A stretch of DNA of 64,000 nt, taken from assembly GCA_026400835.1 (NCBI GenBank), contig JAPLOA010000056.1:1-64000 (forward strand), given 5' to 3'. Source of the stretch: Planctomycetales bacterium. Lineage in GTDB: Bacteria > Planctomycetota > Planctomycetia > Planctomycetales > Planctomycetaceae. The notes beneath the pieces are model-generated. The model saw only the letters and a program-made list of their open reading frames with translations. It did no database searches and was not told the origin of the DNA. Below are positions 36,134 through 54,337 of this stretch, piece after piece (positions within the stretch are counted from its first letter, which is position 1; each line of letters opens with the position of its first letter). A program made the position numbers and the translations under genes.

Positions 36134-38986
36134 ATGTCACGTTTTTCTGCTTATCTTCAAGCACGTGCAGCGCTGTGCCTGTTGCTTTGGTTTGCGGTTA
36201 GTGTCAACGCAAGTGCTCAGGTGGACTTCAATCGGCAGGTGCGTCCGATCCTTGCGGAGCATTGTCTGCAGTGTCACGGGCCCGACGGCGAAAAACGCAG
36301 CGCGGATCTTCGCCTGGATGTTGAGGCCGATGCAAAGAAATCCTCCATCGTGGCTGGATCACCAGACGACAGCGAATTGATGCATCGGATAAGTTCGACA
36401 GATCCCGACACGGTGATGCCACCAAAGGAAACCGGAAAAGTTCTGACCGAAGCGCAGAAAGAAATCCTGAAGCAATGGATTCAGGAAGGCGCAAAATATT
36501 CGGGGCATTGGGCATTTCAGCCGATCGCGAATTCCGACGATCTTTTAAAGACACTTCCAACACCTGACGCAGACAAGTCGCCGGTTGATCGCTTTCTGAT
36601 GCACAAGCTGGAGCAGGCGGGTCTCACGTACTCGAAGCCAGTCAGTCGCGCTCAGTTTATTCGTCGTGCGACATTTGATCTGACCGGATTACCTCCGACA
36701 TGGGCTGAGGTCGAAGCGTTTGAGAATGATACGGCCGCCGGAAGCAAAGAACGCCTGATCGATCGACTGCTGGCATCGCCACGCTACGGTGAACGCTGGG
36801 GACGACACTGGCTGGACATCGCACGGTATGCGGATACTCACGGCGGCGCGGCGATCGGTTTCACGTCCTTCCCGTTCTCTTACACTTATCGCGACTATGT
36901 CATCAAAGCATTCAACAATGATCTGCCGATTGATCGCTTCCTGAAGGAGCAGATTGCCGCGGATCAAATGGGACTTCCGGACGGTGATCCCGCGCTGGCG
37001 GCGTTGGGATTTATGACGGTCGGTATGCAGTTTCGCAACTACCATGACACGATCGACGACCAGATCGATGTGGTCACACGAGGACTCATGGGACTGACCG
37101 TCACGTGTGCTCGGTGTCACGACCACAAATTCGATCCAATCCCGACCGCTGATTACTATGCGTTGTACGCAGCGATTGCTCCGAGCAAAGCTCCACCGGA
37201 GCTTCCGGCCATCGGTGCAGTGACTGATGAGCAGGCTCGCCAGCAGTATGAACGCGAACTGGCGGACCTGAAATTGAAGGTTCAGCAGTTTGCTCGAGAA
37301 CAAAACGAAGTGCTGAGAAATCGCCTGCGAATGCAGGTCGGGCTGTACCTTGCCGAGATTGCGAAAGGCATCGGCGAACAGGACCTGTCGACTCAATTCC
37401 TTTCTTATCGCACCGACGACATTCGCCCGCTCGTTTTCAATCGCTGGCGGACATGGCTGGCGGGAATGAGCAAAGAGGATCCGGTCTTCGGTCCCTGGCT
37501 GGAGATGCAGTCCTGGGGTGCGATCCCGGAAGCCGAATTTCCGACACGACGCGACGAGTATCTCGGTCGACTTTCAGCAGAGCTGGATGCGATCGGACGA
37601 ACTCCGGACAAACTGCACGCTCTGCGTGGTGAACCGCTGAAATGGAACCCATTTGTTGTGGATGCTCTGGTTGAGCAGAAGCCAGGCTCATTGAGTGCTG
37701 TTGCGGCGGTGTACGGAAGAGTATTCGCAGATCAGCAGCGAACATGGTTACAGGCGTTACTGGAATCATCAGCAGAAGCTGCGGTCGGTGGGACAGTCCT
37801 GCCGGACGATCATCCGCAGCATCAGGTCATTAACAGTCCATCGCATCGCCAGATTCGACATCATCTTTACGCAGAAGGATCGCCTTTTGATCTGTCCGAT
37901 GAAGACGCCATTCGTCTGACGAACCGAACCATTGCTGACCTCGCCAGTGGCAAGAAAGGGGCAATTCATCAATTGAACCTGTCATCGCCTGGATCGCCTC
38001 CGCGAGCGATGATTATGCGAGAAGATCCGTTGCCAAAACCGACGCACATCTTCCTGCGCGGCAACCCTTTAGCACGAGGAGAGGTCGTCGAGGCACGATT
38101 CCTGTCATCATTGCCGGGCGATCATTCAAAAACCTATGAATCGGGCCATCGACGTCTCGGACTGGCCCAATCGCTGGTGGCGGAGAATAATCCGCTGACC
38201 GCACGCGTGCTGGTGAATTGGGCGTGGCAGAATCATTTTGGAGTGGGGCTGGTCAGGACACCAGATGACTTTGGGACTCGCGGGCAGGCACCGACACATC
38301 CTGAGTTATTGGACTATCTGGCCGATCAACTGCGAAAGAACGGCTGGTCATTGAAATGGTTGCATCGGCAGATCATGCTCAGTCAGGCGTACGCTCAGGG
38401 AGCGGTTGAGAATGAACAGAGTCGCCAGCTTGATCCAGAGAATCTTTTGCTGTGGCGTATGCCGCGTCGCCGTCTGGAATTCGAAGCCATGCGTGATGCA
38501 ATGCTGGCGGCGTCGGATGAACTGGATGTCACGATGGGCGGTCGTCCGATTGACCTGAATTCTTCACCTGCGGTTCCTCGCCGCAGTGTTTACGGGTTTG
38601 TAAATCGCGATGTGATCGCCAATCTGATGAGCACCTTTGATACGGCCAATCCGAATGCGTGTACCGCGCGACGGCAGGAAACCACTGTTCCTCAGCAGAC
38701 TTTGTTTGCTTTGAATTCTGATTTTATTCAGGATCGTGCTGCTCGACTTGCGGTCTCTACGAAGGAAATGAAACTGGTGTCGGACGCCGAGCGAATCACA
38801 GTCATGGTACGAAAGGCACTTGGTCGCAATCCAACCGAATCCGAGATCGCTCAGGCCGGTACGTTTATGACAGAAGCAACGGCCAACACAACTAACCCGG
38901 AAGGCGCGGCGACAGATCCCGAACGTGGCTGGGTTTTGTTGGCTCACGCATTGTTGGCGTCGAATGAATTTACGTTTCTGGATTAA
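36134..38986 (+). CDS. PSCyt1/DUF1549/DUF1553 multidomain cytochrome
   Basis: This 950-residue secreted protein has a signal peptide (about 1-28) and a PSCyt1 domain with haem motif CLQCH (44-48). DUF1549 has CARCHDHKFDP (325-335) and DUF1553 covers about 640-950. Between them lies about 280 residues of helical sequence, including a coiled segment near 365-400 that the other two paralogues lack. The ATG at 36134 follows a weak ccgagaa site. The DUF1501 partner at 39343 is downstream on the same strand, but a 356-bp gap with a strong hairpin and family A repeats intervenes. The family has no proven activity; two haem sites imply an envelope redox role. Confidence 0.9.
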   Translation: MSRFSAYLQARAALCLLLWFAVSVNASAQVDFNRQVRPILAEHCLQCHGPDGEKRSADLRLDVEADAKKSSIVAGSPDDSELMHRISSTDPDTVMPPKETGKVLTEAQKEILKQWIQEGAKYSGHWAFQPIANSDDLLKTLPTPDADKSPVDRFLMHKLEQAGLTYSKPVSRAQFIRRATFDLTGLPPTWAEVEAFENDTAAGSKERLIDRLLASPRYGERWGRHWLDIARYADTHGGAAIGFTSFPFSYTYRDYVIKAFNNDLPIDRFLKEQIAADQMGLPDGDPALAALGFMTVGMQFRNYHDTIDDQIDVVTRGLMGLTVTCARCHDHKFDPIPTADYYALYAAIAPSKAPPELPAIGAVTDEQARQQYERELADLKLKVQQFAREQNEVLRNRLRMQVGLYLAEIAKGIGEQDLSTQFLSYRTDDIRPLVFNRWRTWLAGMSKEDPVFGPWLEMQSWGAIPEAEFPTRRDEYLGRLSAELDAIGRTPDKLHALRGEPLKWNPFVVDALVEQKPGSLSAVAAVYGRVFADQQRTWLQALLESSAEAAVGGTVLPDDHPQHQVINSPSHRQIRHHLYAEGSPFDLSDEDAIRLTNRTIADLASGKKGAIHQLNLSSPGSPPRAMIMREDPLPKPTHIFLRGNPLARGEVVEARFLSSLPGDHSKTYESGHRRLGLAQSLVAENNPLTARVLVNWAWQNHFGVGLVRTPDDFGTRGQAPTHPELLDYLADQLRKNGWSLKWLHRQIMLSQAYAQGAVENEQSRQLDPENLLLWRMPRRRLEFEAMRDAMLAASDELDVTMGGRPIDLNSSPAVPRRSVYGFVNRDVIANLMSTFDTANPNACTARRQETTVPQQTLFALNSDFIQDRAARLAVSTKEMKLVSDAERITVMVRKALGRNPTESEIAQAGTFMTEATANTTNPEGAATDPERGWVLLAHALLASNEFTFLD

Positions 38987-39060
38987 TCATCAAAGCGGCA
39001 CGGCGCGAGCCGTCCGGTGATCATTAGAGACTGAAAGAGAACGTTTAATAGAAGGCCCAA

Positions 39061-39300
39061 TCATAACCTGAAGTGTCAGTTTTTGAAGTTGTGCATTTTC
39101 AGGCCCGGAGGGTCGACAAATCCAATGCCGTTGGCTGACCGTGGTGTTGATTGAGATCGTGTATTGATCGTTTTCGTTTAACGGCGAGCCGCAGGCGTAG
39201 GCGAAATACAGCAGCAACGCCTGCGGCTTGCCGTTAAACGACTAAATCAATAGCCATATGACCATGGCAGTCCCTCACTGACGTGTCGGGTTGTGATGAC
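39061..39300. repeat. Repeat-rich gap: 24-bp hairpin and family A fragments
   Basis: The gap 38987-39342 lies within a cytochrome/DUF1501 pair. Bases 39061-39112 match the reverse complement of about 131-171, a family A module. Bases 39175-39198 and 39217-39240 form a 24-bp stem (arms built on GTTTAACGGC, then AGCCGCAGGCGT) with one G:T-type mismatch and an 18-base loop. Bases 39269-39300 hold a family A core, TCCCTCACTGACGTGTCGGG. Such structure between the two genes could reduce expression of the second. Confidence 0.8.
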
Positions 39301-39342
39301 GTATTAGTTCACGACAGAAGCATATAGAACCAGGAATTAACC

Positions 39343-40740
39343 ATGTTCAATCAATCAAGACGACATTGGATGCAGACCTGCGGCATGGGATTTGGCGGGC
39401 TCGCGCTGGCTAATATGCTGCAGGATCCTGCGAATGCTGCAGACTCCGGCGGAGCGATGCAGACTCATTTCCCCGGTCGTGCGAAGCATATCATTCATGT
39501 GTTTTTGAACGGCGGAGTTTCTCAGGTCGATACGTTCGACCCGAAGCCTGAGCTGACTCGCCGAGCCGGGCAGATGCTGCCTTTCGAGAACCTGCAAACC
39601 GAACGTAAGACCGGCGTCGCTTTGCCGAGTCCATTCAAGTTTGAAAAGCACGGCGAAAGCGGCATTGAGGTCAGCGATATCTTTCCGCATCTGTCGAAGT
39701 GCGTCGATGAGATGACCGTGATTCGTTCGATGCATGCGGAGCTCCCCAGCCATGAGATGTCTCTCATGTTGATGAACACCGGCGATCAGCGTCTGGTGCG
39801 TCCAAGTCTTGGTTCATGGTTGACGTGGGGCATGGGTTCGATCAATGAGAACCTGCCTGCGTTTATCGCGTTGTGTCCGGGAGGAATGCCGGTGGGTGGA
39901 GCTGGCAATTGGCGGTCCGCGTTTCTGCCGGGGGCATATCAGGGCACTCGCATTGATACATCGAACGCGGATCCGACACGGCTGATTGACTTCCTGCAGA
40001 ACAAACGACTCTCTAACGTTGAACAGTCAAAACAGTTTGCCTTTCTGCAGCAGTTGAATGCTCAACATCAGGCCGATCGTCCGGGAGAGGCCGCGATTGA
40101 ATCACGGATCAAATCCTTCGAACTGGCGTTCCGGATGCAGACAGAAGCAAGTGATGCGTTTGATATCTCGCAGGAACCGGAACATATCCAGAAGATGTAC
40201 GGCGAGGGACCTCAGAATCGCCAGTTGCTGATGGCTCGCCGACTTGTTGAACGCGGAGTGCGATTCGTTCAGACGTGGCATGGTGACCTGCAGCCGTGGG
40301 ACAGCCATTCGAATATCAAGGACGAACATCGACGAGTCGCCAGCCAATGCGATTCTGGACTGGCCGCGTTAATTACAGATCTCAAGCAGCGAGGTCTGCT
40401 GGATGAAACTCTGATCTTATGTACGGGCGAATTTGGCAGAACACCGTCTGTGGAAATGGGTCAGGACGGTTCCGGAGCCAGTCAAGGCCGCGACCACAAT
40501 CACTGGGGCTTTTCGCTGTGGATGGCAGGCGGCGGAATTCGCAAAGGGACTGTGTATGGAGCCACTGATGACTTCGGCTTCAAGGCCGTTGAGAATCCGG
40601 TTTCCTCGCATGATCTGCATGCGACGATTCTTCATCTCATGGGCTACGACCATCAGCGGATGACTTATCGCTATGCGGGACGCGACTTTCGCCTGACAGA
40701 CGTGCATGGGGAAGTGGTTCATCCGATTATTGAAAGTTAA
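39343..40740 (+). CDS. DUF1501 family protein, partner of the 36134 cytochrome
   Basis: This 465-residue protein has an N-terminal SRRHWMQTCGMGFGG, a Tat-like variant in which the usual residues after the double arginine are changed. The family motif NGGVSQVDTFDPKPE lies near residue 57. GRDHNHWGFSLW is in the C-terminal third, and the protein ends RLTDVHGEVVHPIIES. It is most similar to the protein at 11057. The ATG at 39343 follows aggaattaacc, a usable ribosome binding site. It is separated from its cytochrome partner by a repeat-rich gap. The function is unknown. Confidence 0.9.
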   Translation: MFNQSRRHWMQTCGMGFGGLALANMLQDPANAADSGGAMQTHFPGRAKHIIHVFLNGGVSQVDTFDPKPELTRRAGQMLPFENLQTERKTGVALPSPFKFEKHGESGIEVSDIFPHLSKCVDEMTVIRSMHAELPSHEMSLMLMNTGDQRLVRPSLGSWLTWGMGSINENLPAFIALCPGGMPVGGAGNWRSAFLPGAYQGTRIDTSNADPTRLIDFLQNKRLSNVEQSKQFAFLQQLNAQHQADRPGEAAIESRIKSFELAFRMQTEASDAFDISQEPEHIQKMYGEGPQNRQLLMARRLVERGVRFVQTWHGDLQPWDSHSNIKDEHRRVASQCDSGLAALITDLKQRGLLDETLILCTGEFGRTPSVEMGQDGSGASQGRDHNHWGFSLWMAGGGIRKGTVYGATDDFGFKAVENPVSSHDLHATILHLMGYDHQRMTYRYAGRDFRLTDVHGEVVHPIIES

Positions 40741-40842
40741 GTCCCTTCGGCGTGGCGTTGGTGAGCGGAATGGCGTTCGCCTCAAATGCTTCGGCTCACC
40801 GAATACTTTGGACTGCTTGCAGCCTGCTGCAGCTTTCCTCCT

Positions 40843-41837
40843 TCAGCAGCCTGCTGCTGAGCCACTCGCCATCAATTCCCGAGCCGCTCGACGAATCCTG
40901 AAGCGATGAGCGGACTTGGGAGCCTTCGATGAATGACTGACGATTCGCTGAGGCTGACCGGCGACGACACTGAGGAGTTTGCCGAAGTCTTTCACCAGGA
41001 GACACCAGATCTCCCCCGAGACTCCCAGTCGCTCGTTCAGTTCCACAGGTGCCAGATGCCGAACAACACTTCCCGTACCGTACACCCGTCGCTCCGCCGC
41101 CGGGGCCTTCTCCGCCACCGAAGTCGTTTGCTCTGGCTGCAGCACAGCGAACCTCGAACGTCATCGCCCGCCGAATCTCTATGGGCGTTTTCTGAACACT
41201 GAACACTGCCAACTGAACACTCGCGACGAATTCCCGCCGCCCGCTTTAGTGCCGACGTAAACTCACTCTCTTCAATCGTCTCCGCCATTGCAGCCCGAAT
41301 CGGATCCAGATCCACATACGTCGCACACGCCAGAATCGCGGTCTCATCCAGAAGCCGAACCGTTCGATAACGAGCCGGAAAAAAATTGCCGCCTTCGCCG
41401 TCTTCCTTCTGGGCTCGCTGAGCAATACTCTGACTCAACAGCCGCATCCACCACGAGATATCACTCAGTCGAGTTCGCACCGTTGCCAGTTTGTCATTCT
41501 TGTTCACGATGCTGTTGATTTCGAACTCTGCCGGCTCCAGCGGACGACGTTTCTGATCCCGCCGCTCCGGACACAGCATCAGCCAACGCCGAGCCACATC
41601 CTCTTCGCTCCATTCCCTCACGACATCGGGTCGAGATCTCAGTACCAGATGGAAAATTTTTGACATCACGCAATAGGACAGAAGCCGAGTGCCGGTGCGA
41701 GCCACCGCTTCCTCAAGCACCGTCTCGAACGCGACGAAGTCTTCGTCCTTGGTAAAGATCGGCATCCGCGCGTTCGCACGGTTCAGCACATGATAAATCC
41801 AACCCCCTCGAGTTAATCGTTCTGGTCTTCCCATCAC
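40843..41837 (-). pseudogene. Decayed RAYT/Y1 transposase, HUH motif damaged and frameshifted
   Basis: The 5' part (41837 down to about 41170) reads as a RAYT N-terminus: GGWIYHVLNRANARMPIF, then EFEINSIVNKNDKL and ILACATYVDLDPIRAAMAE. The position expected to be SNHWHLV reads MSKIFHLVL, so the first histidine of the HUH motif is lost. FWEGRFKA has become NFFPARYRT. After about residue 190 the frame becomes meaningless, while the frame 40843-41145 carries the expected tail (LNERLGVSGEIW, then LLVKDFGKLL). At least one frameshift therefore separates the two. The gene is probably inactive. Its upstream end shares a 45-bp sequence with the truncated fragment at 42824. Confidence 0.8.
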
Positions 41838-41849
41838 GCAGGATTACTA

Positions 41850-41894
41850 AAACGCCTCTCCATCGTCAATAAACGGTTCCTGACACCTTTTTGT
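41850..41894. repeat. Inverted 45-bp arm upstream of the transposase pseudogene
   Basis: This sequence (AAACGCCTCTC then a few variable bases, then TCAATAAACGGTTCCTGACA and cctttttgt) recurs in reverse complement at 42764-42808. Each copy lies just upstream of a RAYT 5' end. The two copies face each other across about 870 bp. Confidence 0.8.
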
Positions 41895-41930
41895 ATCAAT
41901 GAAAGCATTTCGCGACCAGCCAAAACGCAA

Positions 41931-42446
41931 TCAAGTGAATCGTTCGCCGTGGATGTCCCTTCGCCCACGCTCGCATTGCTCCAACGCCGCCAAGAAGGTA
42001 GCTTTCTCCGCAAGACAATGATCCCGGGATCCCTCGGCGAGTACCAGTGGATGGCCCGGCATGATCGGAACCGGAAGTTGTAGTTCGAAGAGAGCGCCGC
42101 CATCCTCATACTGATCTTCGATGAGTTGAAGGGGGATGAGCTCCTCATAACGAAACTTGCGGCGTACAATACGGAATGGAAAAGTCGCCCGTCCTTCAAC
42201 GACACCATCTTTACCAACCGTGACCGATGTGCATGGATGTTGATTGCTAAACCAGGCGAGCCCGATGCCACAAGCCCACATGACCGCCAGGATCGCATAG
42301 GGATACCATTCAGGAAACCCCACGGGACCACTTACTCCGTCGATGACTGCGTTCCAAGTGCCAACCGCCAGTCCAACGAACCACAATGCCGTGAATACCC
42401 AAACGACAATCCATTTTCGCGAGCAAGTGAAGTAGCGGTTCTTCAT
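41931..42446 (-). CDS. Small membrane protein of unknown function
   Basis: This 171-residue protein has two hydrophobic helices near the N-terminus (about 11-30 and 47-66), then a soluble beta-rich domain (TSVTVGKDGVVEGRATFPF, then LQLPVPIMPGHPLVLAEG). The overall plan resembles small PH-like or DUF3592-like membrane proteins, but no family is certain. It starts at ATG 42446 without a strong ribosome binding site. It sits alone between two inverted RAYT 5' ends with matching 45-bp arms, so it may have been carried or trapped by transposition. No partner gene is visible. Confidence 0.55.
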   Translation of the reverse strand: MKNRYFTCSRKWIVVWVFTALWFVGLAVGTWNAVIDGVSGPVGFPEWYPYAILAVMWACGIGLAWFSNQHPCTSVTVGKDGVVEGRATFPFRIVRRKFRYEELIPLQLIEDQYEDGGALFELQLPVPIMPGHPLVLAEGSRDHCLAEKATFLAALEQCERGRRDIHGERFT

Positions 42447-42683
42447 GGATACCAGTGCTTTTTCGACGAAAAGAGCGTGCGCAGGGCGGATGGAAATTTC
42501 AGAACCTTTTATGAAAGCCTAGCATCGCACGCAAGAAAGAGGTCGGCGAACGAAGAAATTCGCAGGGTGCAACTTGACCGGCCAGCGCATGGAGTGAGTT
42601 GTATTCCGCTTGCAGCGATTGAAGGATGTGTGCGGCAGAGGTCCGCTGCGGCAGATCGGCGACCCCCAGTTGGAAGTTGATGA

Positions 42684-42780
42684 AGGCACAAAAGAGGCAC
42701 AAAAAGGTGTCAAGGCACAAAAAGGTGTCAGGGGTGTCAAGGCACAAAAAGGTGTCAGAAGGCACAAAAAGGTGTCAGGA
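42684..42780. repeat. Tandem array of an 18-bp unit upstream of a transposase fragment
   Basis: Four full units and one partial copy of AAGGCACAAAAAGGTGTC, with small spacer changes (aggggtgtc), run straight into the 45-bp arm that ends at 42808. The last unit joins GGTGTCAGGAACCG. The single-copy equivalent upstream of the other transposase reads cctttttgt without expansion. The rest of 42447-42683 is unrecognised. Confidence 0.85.
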
Positions 42781-42808
42781 ACCGTTTATTGATAGTTGAG
42801 AGGCGTTT
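42764..42808. repeat. Inverted 45-bp arm upstream of the transposase fragment
   Basis: This is the reverse complement of 41850-41894, with differences limited to the middle (gatagttga against the complement of catcgtca). It links the tandem array to the ATG of the truncated RAYT fragment at 42824. Confidence 0.8.
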
Positions 42809-42823
42809 GGGCATTTTTTTGGC

Positions 42824-42988
42824 ATGGTACGACTAAAACGATCAACTTCAGGGGGTTGGATTTATCAATTGCTGAACCGTGCGAACACGCGGATGCCGAT
42901 CTTTACCAGGGACGAAGACTTCATCGCGTTCGAGACGGTGCTTGAGGAAGCCCCAACAAGAAGCATCGCCGAACAGTGCGATTCATAA
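42824..42988 (+). pseudogene. Truncated RAYT transposase N-terminal fragment
   Basis: A 54-codon open frame matches the first 43 residues of the other RAYT copy (GGWIYQLLNRANTRMPIF, then RDEDFIAFETVLEEA). It then diverges into unrelated sequence (PTRSIAEQCDS) and stops. The HUH motif and everything downstream are missing. It is oriented opposite to the copy at 41837, with its 5' end towards it. It is too short to be functional. Confidence 0.85.
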
Positions 42989-44026
42989 CGGCGGCAATAC
43001 CGGAGCAATCGAGAGCTGGATGTATAGACCTAATGCCGTCTGTTCACAAAGTGCTGTGTCCCCCTCGTTCCACATCTGCCAGGGACTGGTCGGTCAATTG
43101 AATACGGAACGTTACGGGGTTCCGTTTCTCGGGGACAATTCATTTCTGCCAGATCGGCTTGAACGAATTGATACTGCCATTCCAACGCAATGGTTCGAAT
43201 AACTCGGACCAGCATCAGGAGACGGAATGCGGGAGCGGGCGGCGAGATTGACTATCACCGTGAACCGGTCCGACCTTTCGCGAACGCACTCCGGCCTGTT
43301 CGCACCTACAACAGAATACAGTGCGACTCCTCCAGACAATGCATGCATTCAGGTTGGCGAATCGCGATGAAAACTGTCCAACCAAAGATTCAAACTTAAA
43401 GCCGCTGAATATCGCGAGCTCCGTGCAGCACCCTGATGAGCTCGCTGCCTTTCGTGCACGGCTTGTAGTAGACAACGACTTTTTCCACGGAGAAACAGCG
43501 AGCCTGACGCCCAAGTTTAAGGCGAGATTCCCCAAGGCTCGGCTTGTGGGCGTACGATTCACATCGTGCAAACAGTCGCTACCGCGTTCCAGCTGATAAC
43601 GTGAGCCCCACTTCACAGCCGAGACAACACCTTTGTCTTTTTACGCATTTCCCGCTCAGTCAGAAATCTCACATGAAGACCTGCCGGGAGGGATTCTTGT
43701 ATTGCTGCAAGGCGAACCGGGTGTGCAACAGGCGTCTGGATATTGGCCGGGATCTTTGGTTTACGTGTATCCACATTGCAATAAACCGCGAAGTCCTGCC
43801 CGGCAGTCAGGAACTACTGAAATCCGCGACGCCGCGCGACTGCTGTCTAGTGCCGCGATGCCTCGCAACCCGGAATTCATCCTGATATGTTGGGCAGAAT
43901 CACCAGTCTCCGGGAATGACGGCGCGAGAATCTCTGTGAATTCAGATTGGTCACTAATCAATCGAGAATCCCAGCGGCCCTCACGGTCATTCGCATTTGA
44001 TTCCTAATCCTTTGAAGGTCAGCGTC
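42989..44026. other. Decayed intergenic region with toxin remnant and family B repeat
   Basis: No intact gene is seen over about 1 kb. It contains the ParE-like remnant listed separately, and a family B repeat at about 43785-43830 (CCGCGAAGTCCTGCCCGGCA, then gtcaggaactactgaaatccgcgac). A block at 43688-43720 (gggattcttgtattgctgca) resembles 3413-3432. The other open frames here have no recognisable similarity. Confidence 0.5.
43396..43578 (-). pseudogene. ParE/RelE-type toxin remnant
   Basis: The minus strand encodes about 60 residues matching the C-terminal half of ParE/RelE toxins: HKPSLGESRLKLGR, then ARCFSVEKVVVYYKP, then ELIRVLHGARDIQRL and a stop. An in-frame TAG at 43579-43581 ends the frame upstream. 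No antitoxin gene or N-terminal half was found in any frame. It appears to be a 5'-truncated relic in a region already rich in transposase debris. Confidence 0.6.
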
Positions 44027-45019: not shown

Positions 45020-45380
45020 CGTTTTGAAGTTGCGCGTTTGCGACTATCCCAACCCGAAACGTCAGTGAGGGATTGTGATTTCGCGTTCGAACAATTCTTC
45101 CCCCAGAATCCCTCGCTCACGCTTTTTGAAGTTGCGCGTTTCGACGCTTTGGTTTGTGCAGCCTGCAAAAGCATTGGGAATTATCACAACCCGAAGCGTC
45201 AGCGAGGGATTTACGCAAACACTGCGTAAAACGCAAAAACACAATCCCTCGCTCACGCAGCGGGTTGGGATGGGCACAGATGCGCAACTTCAAAACTCAC
45301 GCTTCGGGTTGTGATGGATTCCTGTATTTTTGCAAGTATTGATCCGTTCGTGTCGCCAAATGCGCAACTTCAAAAACCCC
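45020..45380. repeat. Cluster of family A palindromic repeats
   Basis: At least three family A copies are packed here. Cores are GTCAGTGAGGGATT (45061), AATCCCTCGCTCACGC (about 45107), GCGTCAGCGAGGGATTTACG (about 45196) and AATCCCTCGCTCACGC (about 45243). The module TTTTGAAGTTGCGCG or its complement appears four times (45021, 45124, 45281, 45361). The cluster fills most of the gap between the TIM-barrel gene and the 3' end of hemQ. Confidence 0.85.
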
Positions 45381-48989: not shown

Positions 48990-51731
48990 TTACTTCTGCT
49001 CCTCAGCTTTAAAGTCGCCGGCCTGAACAATAAACAAGCGTTGGGGGTCGATATGCTTCTTCAAGGCAGCGTTCACTTCTTCGACCGTCAGCTTACTGAT
49101 CCTGTCTTCGAACTCGGCCACAAATTTCATATCGCGACCAATGAATGCATACGATTCAAGCGTCTGCACGATAGCTCGATCTTCCGTACGCTGGACCTGC
49201 TGTTCCTGAAGATAACCGGCTTTGGCCGCTTCCAGTTCTTCCGCAGTAATACCGTTGTCCAGCAGCTTTTTCAGTTCATCCTGAATGGCTTCGTGGACCT
49301 TCGGAGCATTGTCCGGATTGGAGATCGCGAACAGGAAGAACGTCGTTCGCTCATCGACGGCCGATGGTTGCAGGCTGGACTGCACGGAGTACGAAAGTCC
49401 TTCCTTCTGTCGCAAACGATCGCCCAGTCTTGAAGAAAGACCGCTGCTTCCCAATACGAAGTTTCCGATCGACAAAGCCGCGTAGTCAGGATGATCATCT
49501 CGCATCGGGATCGTCATAGCTGCGATGTAAGCAGCGTTCGGCTTATCCGGCGTCAGGATTTGTTCACGATCGCCCTTCTCGTTGTTCACGGAAACGCGAG
49601 CCAGTCGTTCGAACTTAACGTCGGAAGACCAACCCATCGTAAACTCATCAACAGAGGGCAGTACCAGCTCCGGATCGAAGTCACCGACGATGGTGAGTTC
49701 GCCAACAGCCGAGGACAACATGTGGGAATAAACATCTTTAATCTGTTCGACGGTGACCGCTTTCACGCGTTCGGCTTCTTCGTCCATGGTTGGCACATAG
49801 CGAGGATCATCAACCGGATATGGTGAGATTTTGCGACTGACGTTTGTCATAGCCAAAGCAATTGGATCGGACATCTGCTGATTAATCTGGGCAATCTGCT
49901 CTTCGCGGATGATCTCCAGCTCTTCTTTCGGGAACAGCGGATGCTTCATGACCTCCTTCACGATCTCAAGAACCTTCGCGACGTTCTCGCGGCTGGTCTG
50001 CACAGAGAGCGACAAGACGCCCGGGGTCCCGGAAACCCGCAACTGAGCCCGGTAGTTGTTCAGTTCATCCGTGATCTGCTGACGCGTCATATGCTCTGAG
50101 CCGCGATTCAACATCTGCGGCATCAACTCGGCAGCCACGGCAAGGCCCTTCAGAGCTTCTGCATTTCCGTATCGAAAATTGAGTCGCAGATTGACGATGG
50201 ATCCGCGAGTCTTCTTTGGGAGCAGCGTGACTTTGATTCCGGACGACAATGTCGAACGAGCGAGCCGCTTTTCGATCGCCAACGGATCCACATCGAATTC
50301 TTCACCCTGAGCTACATCGGATCGGCCCTTGTAGTCGCCAATCATCTCGGCCAGATCCGGTGTTGCCGGAATGGTGGCTCGCTGAGCTTCCTTCGTCGGC
50401 TCATAGACGCCGGCTGTTCTGTTGTTGCGAACCAGATAGGTGGCAGCGACACGAGTCACATCTTCCGCCGTCACTTTTTCGAGGCGATCGCGGTAGAGAA
50501 AGAACAGACGCCAGTCGCCCTGAGCTGACCAGTCGCTGAGTTCAATTGCCACGCGTTGAGAATCGGCGACCGTTAGTTCACGCTGCTTCAGAAGTTCAGA
50601 CCGAGCACGTTCGACTTCTTCCGGAGTGAAGGCTTTCTCAGCAGTGCCTTCGCCCGATTCAATCAGACTCTGAACCAGAGCAGTCCCGTCGGTTCCCTGA
50701 GTCGCCTCGGCCATAAACATCAGAATGCCGGGATCATGGAGGGCGAACGTCATTCCGAACACGCTGGCGGCAACTCGACGCTTCACCAGAGATTCATAAA
50801 GTCGACCGGCAGGTTCGCTGGTCATGATCGTGGAAAGCACATCCACTGCGGCAAAGTCGGGATGACCACCGGAGGGAATATGGTAGAGCGTCGCAGCCAG
50901 AGCTACATCGCCGACACGTCGCAGTGTCACCATCCGCTCGCCGTCCTGAGCCGGCTCTTCTGTGTACGTTGGCTCAAGCTTACGTTCAGGACGTGGAATA
51001 ACTCCGAAGTAGTTCTTCACGAACTCCAGCGACTTCTTCTCATCGAACTTACCCGCAATCACCAGAATCACGTTGTCGGGCTGATAATACTTCTGATAAA
51101 ACCGACGCAAGTTGTCCGCCGGAACCTTCTCGATGTCCGCACGGTTGCCAATGGTGGACTGGCCGTAATTATGCCATTCAAACGCCGCCGCCGTTACGCG
51201 CTGCATGAGAACTCGCTGAGGACTATTCTCACCGCGTTCAAATTCGCTGCGGACCACGGAAAATTCTTTAGCCAGATCATCAGCACTGATGAAACTGTTC
51301 ACGAGCCGATCGGCTTCCAGCTTCAATGCGAATTCGAGATTCTCGTCGCTGGCCGGCAGAGTTTCGTAGTAGTTGGTGCGGTCAAGCCAGGTCGTCCCGT
51401 TGAACTCTGCTCCTCGTTCCTGCAATGACCTGGGAATATTCTGATGTGTGGGTGTTCCTTTAAAGACCATATGCTCCAGAAGGTGAGCCATCCCGGCTTC
51501 GCCATAACCTTCATGGCGTGACCCAACGAAGACCGTGAGATTGACGGTCACTTTCGGACTGGACTTATCCGGGAACAGCAGCACCTTCATGCCGTTGTCC
51601 AGATGATACTCAGAAATCCCTTCCACCGAGCGAATCAGGGCCGGTTCACCTTCTGCCGCCAGCAGTGGCCTGAAGGTTGAAAGCATACTTACAACAGCCG
51701 CAACTCGCAGAACCATCGAGCCCATTTTCAT
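48990..51731 (-). CDS. Secreted M16 family zinc metallopeptidase, two-lobed
   Basis: This 913-residue exported protein has a signal peptide (about 1-26). The N-terminal lobe carries the inverted zinc motif HLLEH (83-87) with a downstream Glu in the EFERGEN segment. Together these form the catalytic centre of pitrilysin/insulinase-type peptidases. The second half (from about 480) repeats the M16 fold but has no HxxEH, as in single-chain clamshell members such as PqqL or protease III. It therefore probably degrades short peptides in the periplasm. The ATG at 51731 follows an aaagga ribosome binding site with ideal spacing. It is the largest gene of this section and is monocistronic upstream. 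Confidence 0.92.
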   Translation of the reverse strand: MKMGSMVLRVAAVVSMLSTFRPLLAAEGEPALIRSVEGISEYHLDNGMKVLLFPDKSSPKVTVNLTVFVGSRHEGYGEAGMAHLLEHMVFKGTPTHQNIPRSLQERGAEFNGTTWLDRTNYYETLPASDENLEFALKLEADRLVNSFISADDLAKEFSVVRSEFERGENSPQRVLMQRVTAAAFEWHNYGQSTIGNRADIEKVPADNLRRFYQKYYQPDNVILVIAGKFDEKKSLEFVKNYFGVIPRPERKLEPTYTEEPAQDGERMVTLRRVGDVALAATLYHIPSGGHPDFAAVDVLSTIMTSEPAGRLYESLVKRRVAASVFGMTFALHDPGILMFMAEATQGTDGTALVQSLIESGEGTAEKAFTPEEVERARSELLKQRELTVADSQRVAIELSDWSAQGDWRLFFLYRDRLEKVTAEDVTRVAATYLVRNNRTAGVYEPTKEAQRATIPATPDLAEMIGDYKGRSDVAQGEEFDVDPLAIEKRLARSTLSSGIKVTLLPKKTRGSIVNLRLNFRYGNAEALKGLAVAAELMPQMLNRGSEHMTRQQITDELNNYRAQLRVSGTPGVLSLSVQTSRENVAKVLEIVKEVMKHPLFPKEELEIIREEQIAQINQQMSDPIALAMTNVSRKISPYPVDDPRYVPTMDEEAERVKAVTVEQIKDVYSHMLSSAVGELTIVGDFDPELVLPSVDEFTMGWSSDVKFERLARVSVNNEKGDREQILTPDKPNAAYIAAMTIPMRDDHPDYAALSIGNFVLGSSGLSSRLGDRLRQKEGLSYSVQSSLQPSAVDERTTFFLFAISNPDNAPKVHEAIQDELKKLLDNGITAEELEAAKAGYLQEQQVQRTEDRAIVQTLESYAFIGRDMKFVAEFEDRISKLTVEEVNAALKKHIDPQRLFIVQAGDFKAEEQK

Positions 51732-52005
51732 ATCAGCAATCCTTTCAGAATATTGACGCCCTCCCGGATTGTAGCGGCCTCCGCAGTTTTCACATGGGTT
51801 ACGGCGAGATCTTTACGGCCCCTGATAAAACCGGGAAAGCCCCTGACCAAACCAGGCCCCAATCCCGCAAACTGTAACTTCCGATGAAGCTTGTACTTAC
51901 TCCGCCCCGACCAACATGGAGGTAATGATCTGAATCAAGCATCCCGCGAACACACGGCCTTGGGAACAGTCCCAAAATAACTTCCGGATACTGGCATGCC
52001 TTGAA

Positions 52006-52080
52006 ATCCCAAGCCGAAACTTAAGTGAGGGATTCTGCACAATATCTCGATCCCTCGCTGACGTGTCGGCCTGGGATGAA
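52006..52080. repeat. Family A palindromic repeat truncating the kinase gene
   Basis: Arms AAACTTAAGTGAGGGATT (52017-52034) and ATCCCTCGCTGACGTGTCGG (about 52050-52069), followed by cctgggatga, form a family A copy. Its right part supplies the last residues of the kinase fragment (GRHVSEGSRYCAESLT). The remainder of 51732-52005 is unrecognised and contains no kinase tail. Confidence 0.8.
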
Positions 52081-53428
52081 CGAATTGAACGGAGGTTGCC
52101 CGCACAACATTTCCCACAGCAGAACACTCAGCGAATACTGATCGCTGCGAGCATCGACGTCATCGGCTTCCCGTGCATGACCCGAGTGACAGACTTCCAG
52201 TTGCTCGCGCGACATGCAGGCCAGACTGCCGCCAAAGTAAGCTGCCGGGGGCACCCGGTCGAGCTTTGAACAGAAGCTGATATTGAAGTCGACAATTTTC
52301 GGAGCCCCGTTTTCATCCAGCAAAATACTAACCGGCTTGAGATCTCGATGAAGCACGCCTTGCTCGTGCGCAGACTGGAGTGCAGACGCGACCTGAATTC
52401 CGAACAGACAAACCGTATCAGGCCAGGTGGCTTTCTGTAGTCGACGGTGCAAAGGCTGTTCGTGAGCAGTCCCGGTGACCCCAAAGCCGCTTCCGGATTC
52501 CTGCAACTGACGACTGATCGCCTTCAACAAAGCCGTGCCGGACCAATCGGATTTCGGCAACAGACGCAGTTGGCCCAGCACTTCTGAAAGCGATGCTCCG
52601 GCAACGTACTGCATGGAAAGCAGACGCCCATTCCTCTCCGGGAGTATGCGCTGTTCGTAAACTCGCACAATGTCCGGATGATCCAGTTGAGCGAGCGTCT
52701 GAGCTTCATTGCTGCGAGTGACACTAATCTTCAGCGCCACACAGGCGTTGCATGGACTTTTGACGAGCCCGAAACACTGTGGCAAATACTCCGCTGCCCA
52801 GGCGAGTCAACAGATCAAAATCGTCGATCGTGTCGCCGGGCGGGAGAGTCATCTTTTGCCGCGATTCTGCCCGCATCGAACTGGATTCAACGGATTCGGC
52901 CTGACCAATGAGTCGTTTGAGTCGATCGGCCAAACCCGGAAATCGCGCCACGAACTTACTCAGCCTGACATCTTCGCCCGATTGACGCCGAATGTGGAAT
53001 TCTTCACAAACGAAATCACATGGAGCTAAACCGTCCGGCTCTTTCAGTTCCGGCCACTCATCGAAACACTGTTCAACCGACTTTGGATCCGTTTTGTGAG
53101 TCCAGCGTTGTTCGAAATCAACCTTTACCAATTCAATCAGCGTCAGGCGGCGAGTGAACGGGAGTACTGGACGATGAAACCTCCACGATACCAGATACTC
53201 ATGAGACTCCCTGTTTCGAAACACGATTTCGATCGCAGTGCGGACTTCAGTCGGCATTGTCACGGGACTTGAGAACACAATGTTGGCTGAAGCCAACGCT
53301 ACGAATGCTGCGAACACCAGAAATGCTGAACCGGCGAGCGGCACTCGTCTCACAAGTTGCGATTCTGTCAGACACTCGCTGAAATTCAACCGGGGTCGCT
53401 TGAACAGTCCGCCACAATCCGTTGCCAT
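52021..53428 (-). pseudogene. Broken Ser/Thr protein kinase
   Basis: Two overlapping frames carry one protein. The first (53428 to about 52740) has an N-terminal region and the glycine-rich loop DDFDLLTRLGSGVFATVFRA, then runs out near MQRLC. The second (about 52750 to 52021) resumes with VALKIS, then LDHPDIVRVYEQ, HRDLKP and KIVDFNIS, so a frameshift lies around 52735-52750. Catalytic sites are decayed: the Asn expected after HRDLKP is Ser (KPVSIL). The activation segment reads GGSLACMSREQL where YMSPEQL is usual. The kinase lobe ends at MLCGQPPF, where a family A repeat begins. ATG 53428 is the likely original start, 51 bp from the divergent dipeptidase gene. It is almost certainly inactive. 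Confidence 0.82.
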
Positions 53429-53479: not shown

Positions 53480-54337
53480 ATGAACACGCCGCAAAACTTG
53501 ACTCCTCAGGCCTTCTGGGCTGACCAGATGGAACAAGGCTATTCACTCGTCGAGCAGATTCTGGCTTTTCCGGTGCAGGAATCAGGCGAAGGTTTTGCGT
53601 CATTGAAAGACGCGGTCGAAGAAGATGGAGTCGAGATCCTCTTTTCGACCTCAAAGATTGCCGGCGCGCTGGATCGCGTCTTCTACATGCGACAGAGCCT
53701 CGTGAAAGATGTGCTGGCCATTGGCCGCGAGATGAATCGTCGTGGCTGGATTCTGAAGATCGAGGACGGCTATCGTTCGCTGGCGATGCAGAAACAGCTC
53801 GGCAGCAAGCCGGAGCTATTCGACGCCATTCTGAAGAAATGCATTTGGGAGAACGGAGGCACGATTCCGCCGGTCGAGCTGGTGTTCCGTCGGGGCTCTG
53901 TTTTGATCGCCAATATCCCCAAAGTGGGAACTCATATGTCCGGATCGGCGATTGATATCTCGGTCTTTCGACGTGACGACGGCAGTGAAGTCTGGCGTGG
54001 AAACACTTATCTGGAGATGAGCGAACGAACGCCGATGAGAAGTCCGTTCGTCGAGCCGGAATTTGTGCAGAACCGACTTGAGATCACCGCAGTGATGGAG
54101 TCACACGGCTTTATGCATTTTCCGTTTGAGTTCTGGCATTACAACAAAGGTGACGGGCTCGGGCATATCCTCACCGGCAACAAAGCACCGGCCAGCTTCG
54201 GCCCTGTGCATTGGGATCCCACAACCAACAAGGTCACGGCCGTTGATAATCCCTCGGAGCCTCTGCGACCGCTGCCCGAGATTGAACGCGAAATCGCCGC
54301 CGCAGTGGAACGCGCGAAAGCCGCTGGAACAAGTTAA
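53480..54337 (+). CDS. M15-type D-Ala-D-Ala dipeptidase-like protein
   Basis: This 285-residue protein resembles VanX-type M15 metallopeptidases, which cleave D-alanyl-D-alanine. The zinc ligands appear complete: His152 and Asp159 in THMSGSAIDISVF and His220 in FEFWHY, with Glu217 as the catalytic base. The N-terminal 90 residues are helical and not recognised. There is no signal peptide, as expected for a cytoplasmic dipeptidase. The ATG at 53480 follows AGGA with good spacing; the frame is open further upstream without support. Cell wall or peptide recycling is the likely context. Substrate preference is not inferable. Confidence 0.8.
   Translation: MNTPQNLTPQAFWADQMEQGYSLVEQILAFPVQESGEGFASLKDAVEEDGVEILFSTSKIAGALDRVFYMRQSLVKDVLAIGREMNRRGWILKIEDGYRSLAMQKQLGSKPELFDAILKKCIWENGGTIPPVELVFRRGSVLIANIPKVGTHMSGSAIDISVFRRDDGSEVWRGNTYLEMSERTPMRSPFVEPEFVQNRLEITAVMESHGFMHFPFEFWHYNKGDGLGHILTGNKAPASFGPVHWDPTTNKVTAVDNPSEPLRPLPEIEREIAAAVERAKAAGTS

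Follow-up and report, generated by a model that had tools for sequence, protein, structure and literature searches.

Two deletions and a frameshift in a planctomycete Ser/Thr kinase gene joined to a shortened inverted-repeat element

A gene for a membrane-anchored Ser/Thr protein kinase in a Planctomycetales genome (7.58 Mb, 112 contigs) carries three disabling lesions—two deletions and one frameshift—of which its orthologues in two relatives, G004 and G015, are entirely free, and its kept part now runs into a shortened copy of a small element with terminal inverted repeats (TIRs). From these sequence comparisons, we infer that function has been lost and that this is a dead gene, or pseudogene. 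In all likelihood, the element landed downstream of the kinase stop codon, and a deletion then ran from the kinase into the left arm of the element. The gene lies on the minus strand of the window (the whole 64,000-nt stretch analysed, part of contig C35), between a divergent M15 peptidase gene and an M16 peptidase gene (Table 1). Gene decay through deletion and frameshift is commonplace, and the gene described here is an ordinary pseudogene. It offers a clean natural case of a bacterial signalling gene with three separate lesions, each readable by comparison with two relatives that are intact. It also suggests that a small element dwelling in a spacer can become fused to a gene without inserting in that gene, and it counsels caution in concluding from one genome that a repeat has inserted in a gene.

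Lesions of the kept part and its intact orthologues

The kinase coding sequence is split across two frames, and only the second—open over 254 aa—gave a Pkinase match in a Pfam profile search (PF00069, E 2.8e-21), with the match ending at position 198 of the 263 in the profile. Near matches to the second-frame protein were found in two of 40 genomes (the window's own being included in the 40), namely on contig C461 of G004 and contig C9 of G015, which are of the same genus. Both of these orthologues are open frames, showing 88% and 87% protein identity, respectively, to the second-frame piece, and both are flanked by M15 and M16 peptidases in conserved order; the next nine are 43–53% identical. 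The G004 kinase is 742 aa long, counted from the ATG of MADCIERF. All three genomes are draft assemblies. The alignment to full-length orthologues that had been proposed in the earlier note as a check found both relatives intact, and the lesions could be mapped base by base.

Table 1. Features of the kinase locus and of the adjoining element (window coordinates)
Feature	Position	Strand	Basis or remark
M15 peptidase, upstream neighbour	53480..54337	+	PF01427; dN/dS 0.03-0.05, strong constraint
Junction of 131-nt deletion; likely start ATG (MADCIERF in G004 and G015) and ~32 codons gone	53155..53156	-	Alignment to both orthologues
Ser/Thr kinase gene, kept part, ~355 codons in two frames	52084..53155	-	DNA alignment to G004 (C461) and G015 (C9)
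Extra G, frameshift	52737..52738	-	GG in the window (minus strand CTGTGTGGCGCTG) versus a single G in G004 and G015
Catalytic-loop Asn codon to Ser (KPAN to KPVS; HRDLKPVS)	52327..52329	-	N in 14 of 14 aligned homologues
SPE/APE-motif Pro to Arg (MSPE to MSRE)	52207..52209	-	P in 14 of 14 aligned homologues
3′ deletion junction; kinase codon PFN joined to inside of the element's left arm	52083..52084	-	Alignments, element consensus
Element-supplied end of the fused frame, 20 codons and stop	52021..52083	-	
Shortened copy of the ~144-nt MITE-like TIR element, with the family A palindrome inside	51962..52083	-	Genome matches, consensus, TIRs
Palindrome within the element, 28-nt arms, 82% complementary	52006..52077	-	
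Right TIR, intact	51962..51985	-	TIR pattern with 3 mismatches
CAA, a TGA triplet in both relatives; probable target site	51960..51962	-	Spacer comparison; TNA-like flanks elsewhere
M16 peptidase, downstream neighbour, intact	48990..51731	-	PF00675/PF05193; dN/dS 0.055 to G015 over the whole open frame

The true start codon has likely been deleted from the window gene, judging from the 131 nt that are missing at its 5′ end relative to both orthologues; in G015, a weak direct repeat (~11/15, read by eye from the alignment) lies at the ends of the deleted stretch. This 5′ deletion had been overlooked in the earlier note, which placed the gene start near 53428. The ATG there is probably not the start, as it lies in spacer that is partly absent from G004 itself. 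The frameshift previously located near 52740 was borne out as one extra base relative to both orthologues and, with the profile match ending where it does, the catalytic domain is not covered in full by a single open frame.

Within the second frame, the invariant Lys (ALK), the HRD Asp, and the DFx Asp (DFN) are all kept. The catalytic-loop Asn expected of an active Hanks-type kinase is Ser in the window, and the Pro of the SPE/APE motif is Arg. Both the substitution after HRDLKP and the changes in the APE region had already been pointed out, and both held up against the 14 aligned homologues, in which the Tyr preceding the latter motif is likewise invariant (14/14) and is replaced in the window (Y190 to C; AYMSPE to ACMSRE). 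At the position of MSREQ, the homologues read MSPE in 11 cases and MAPE in 3. DFN in place of DFG was considered as a sign of decay and rejected, because all 14 homologues have DFN; on this alignment, DFN is ancestral, and normal for the subfamily.

The kept part also differs from its orthologues in the kind of change accumulated. Over the 355 kept codons, with counts taking in only those codons where the other two sequences agree, the window branch shows 31 amino-acid-changing and 24 silent changes, versus 5 and 14 on the G004 branch and 3 and 19 on the G015 branch (together 8 and 33; Fisher p 0.0003). On the same branch, the flanking genes show 7 changing and 28 silent changes (M15, 1/21; first 112 codons of M16, 6/7; p 0.0009). 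Pairwise dN/dS values for the kinase are 0.255 and 0.197 with the window and 0.098 between G004 and G015, and those for M15 are 0.029, 0.042, and 0.051. For M16, the first 112 codons gave 0.189 and 0.201 with the window and 0.077 between the relatives, with the 5′ end of this gene thus raised too beside its whole-frame value. The window branch is unpolarised and includes the stem to the relatives, so the counts locate relaxed constraint on a branch, not in time. The excess of amino-acid changes on this branch is consistent with relaxed selection.

The second frame, open for 254 aa, might suggest that the truncated gene still works, encoding a short pseudokinase whose tail comes from the element. 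However, that frame begins after the ATP-binding loop; the gene has lost its start, its catalytic Asn, the C-lobe end, and its membrane part; and constraint is relaxed—all of which makes such a function exceedingly improbable.

The 3′ junction and the order of events

The last position with kinase homology is in PFN (window 52084), and the element starts at the adjacent base, 52083. The earlier observation that the kinase stops where the repeat starts was thereby confirmed, as was, by alignment to the two intact orthologues, the broader claim of a decayed gene with its fusion point at the repeat. Missing after PFN are 1,147 nt of the orthologue (G004 C461:2782–3928), made up of 354 C-terminal codons, the stop codon, and 82 spacer nucleotides; this junction also lacks ~24 nt of the element. 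A simple hydropathy count, run on the full protein, gave five hydrophobic stretches in the C-terminal 338 residues of the G004 kinase, which matched no Pfam family. This part was absent from the window's genome and, in the same search run as a control, present in eight of eight other genomes; the suggestion that the missing C-lobe might lie elsewhere thus found no support there, and the 580 nt behind the junction, translated in three frames, contained nothing resembling it. The C-terminal part is conserved in the subfamily at 20 of the 21 loci examined (two of which, L132 and L138, are one and the same place), Nocardia, Rhodococcus, and mycobacterial records among them; L151, the one locus without it, stops 57 nt past the kinase match. 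These sequence comparisons support the view that the 3′ half of the window gene was lost and is not primitively absent.

As a separate observation, Nocardia, Rhodococcus, and mycobacterial records (L139–L149, L152) include kinases that are 43–50% identical to the query and share this C-terminal membrane domain. The distribution of this combination of kinase and membrane domain is odd, being common to planctomycetes and to these records.

The anatomy of the element copy, read against the consensus of 10 full copies, is asymmetric: 10 of 24 positions match in the outer left TIR, 11 of 16 in the next stretch, and 89 of 104 in the remainder. The left outer TIR is gone, and this damaged end faces the kinase; the intact right end faces the spacer and abuts spacer sequence present in both relatives. 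The element-derived residues of the fused frame are SFIPGRHVSEGSRYCAESLT (20), followed by TAA at 52021–52023. The repeat does, then, supply the last codons, as had been claimed, but their extent is this 20-residue stretch, longer than GRHVSEGSRY.

Because the spacer-side end is intact and the kinase-side end damaged, the simplest reading is that a deletion extended from within the kinase into an element lying downstream. The small non-autonomous TIR element would first have inserted at a TGA triplet in the spacer, ~82 nt past the kinase stop, as the intact right end and its flank suggest. A deletion of ~1.17 kb would next have brought the kinase PFN up against the interior of the left TIR of the element; compared with the two orthologues, the window gene has lost the end of its catalytic domain, its entire membrane domain, and its stop codon, together with all spacer before the element. 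Separately, the 131-nt deletion took the likely start and a single-base insertion broke the frame; free of selection, the kept part gained amino-acid changes, two of them in catalytic motifs. We infer that the insertion preceded the large deletion. Synteny and intact open frames in both orthologue-bearing relatives, with all lesions aligned exactly, speak for the account as a whole, while the target triplet, which is CAA in the window and not TGA, speaks against it by requiring two transitions.

Insertion of the element into the kinase reading frame after PFN, with the 3′ part lost later, was the reading favoured in the earlier note, and the kinase does stop no more than a base or two from the element. 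Such an exact meeting is, however, the appearance of any deletion ending inside a repeat. In addition, the kinase-facing end is without its outer TIR, and the spacer-facing end is intact and runs into spacer conserved in both relatives; because insertion into the gene with later loss of the remainder would produce the reverse pattern of ends, in-frame insertion is disfavoured and has only a slight chance of being correct. Recombination between a copy within the gene and another behind it, with deletion of the stretch between, would account for the single copy between kinase and spacer, and copies are numerous. Two complete copies should nevertheless yield an element that is itself complete at its two ends, and the left TIR is missing here; moreover, no copy lies within the gene or immediately downstream of it in either relative. 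This recombination is accordingly also very unlikely, although a variant in which the first copy was itself already truncated would stay compatible with the missing left TIR.

Under the preferred order, in which the deletion ran from the kinase into an element already lying downstream, the earlier claims about the effect of the repeat hold in part. The rest of the kinase has indeed been removed (354 codons, with a membrane domain of five hydrophobic stretches), but probably not by insertion of the repeat. Similarly, the repeat has altered a coding sequence insofar as it supplies 20 codons and a stop, but it was most likely not inserted in frame, and the gene is broken in two other places too.

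The element family and comparison with known systems

The core of the repeat, AGCGAGGGATT, occurs 219 times in the genome (reversed control, 0) and at 11 places in the window, versus 0.24 expected from shuffles. The stretch around 51962–52077 matches 70 places in the genome, a count that includes the stretch itself; the best of the remainder are 83–84% identical over 104–118 nt. Alignment of 16 copies with their flanks revealed a longer element with inverted ends, ~144 nt long with 24-nt TIRs; among 22 pairs of element ends, nine are spaced at 138–146 nt, nine at 321–326 nt, and four at other lengths. TNA-like triplets flank other copies at both ends, with left and right triplets agreeing in ~7 of 22 rows by eye. 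One filled/empty pair was found (C68:202899–203036 of the window's genome versus C150 of G004), the empty site being TGA; a second (C45 versus C86 of G015) was dropped because adjoining other repeats make the comparison unclean.

The TIR pattern, at up to 3 mismatches, occurs 67 times in the window's own genome, 14 times in G004, and 9 times in G015, the latter two being less complete assemblies (reversed controls, 0); by this count, the elements are approximately five to seven times commoner here than in the two nearest relatives. It is conceivable, if rather doubtful, that the deletion was made by abortive transposition—an adjacent deletion using one end—such that the small palindromic elements of this lineage actively trim neighbouring genes.

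Several further repeats were observed. Forms of ~325 nt at L117 and L121 (C26:111296–111620 and C101:183572–183896 of the window's genome) look like the 144-nt element with a nested second element of ~180 nt (ends TTTTGAAGTTGCG); the outer and the nested element have differing TIRs, yet each contains the same AGCGAGGGATT-type palindrome. At 45022–45377 of the window, an insertion of ~353 nt whose ends resemble TTTTGAAGTTGCGC / GCGCAACTTCAAAA interrupts the loop of a palindrome that looks like a terminator (CCCCGACCCCGCGTCGGGG) and is uninterrupted in G004. A stretch of ~3.1 kb at 40735–43850, which contains inverted repeats of 188 nt that are 86% complementary and separated by 869 nt, has no counterpart in the parts of G004 and G015 that were aligned. 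At 38985–39338, the window has ~354 nt where G004 has 23 nt, and a repeat within this stretch (39140–39250) has many counterparts in G004 and G015, with identities of up to 95%. Another small repeat family is represented by a 30-nt word (L217:2813–2842; C68:196312–196341 of the window's genome), which recurs, often at 100% identity, at dozens of places on both strands in G004 and G015.

A text search of the literature with the core sequence found no paper. A search for planctomycete MITEs returned, as the nearest item, a general survey of palindromic repeats (PMC3733652). Across the literature searches, no report of the element or of the kinase loss was recognised among the titles and abstract starts. 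The element family may thus be undescribed in the literature searched.

With respect to the gene, synteny, the 87–88% identity of the second-frame piece, and the Pkinase match are those of the membrane-anchored Hanks-type bacterial Ser/Thr kinases (PF00069; planctomycete DFN subfamily). The window gene differs from these kinases in that its start, its membrane domain, and the final quarter of its catalytic domain are gone, its frame is broken, and the catalytic Asn and the SPE Pro are replaced. With respect to the repeat, which had no Rfam match in the window, assignment to a REP/RAYT system was rejected, the core motif being found near none of 19 Y1 transposase (PF01797) loci within up to ~1.5 kb on each side. 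PMC3733652 describes CGTC-tagged REP repeats as palindromes with CGTC ends that do not flank tyrosine transposase genes, one family of which sits within larger palindromes. Like these, the palindrome of the element has CGTC ends and no flanking tyrosine transposase genes; unlike them, the element is longer, has its own TIRs, and starts its stem without the AT pairs given in that paper. From MITEs, the element differs in that no transposase partner was found (no transposase frame was recognised by eye within the one TIR pair inspected, 1.6 kb apart at C11:17296–18895) and in that the window copy is short of one TIR. It resembles them in its length of ~144 nt, its 24-nt TIRs, its many dispersed copies, and the filled/empty site in a relative.
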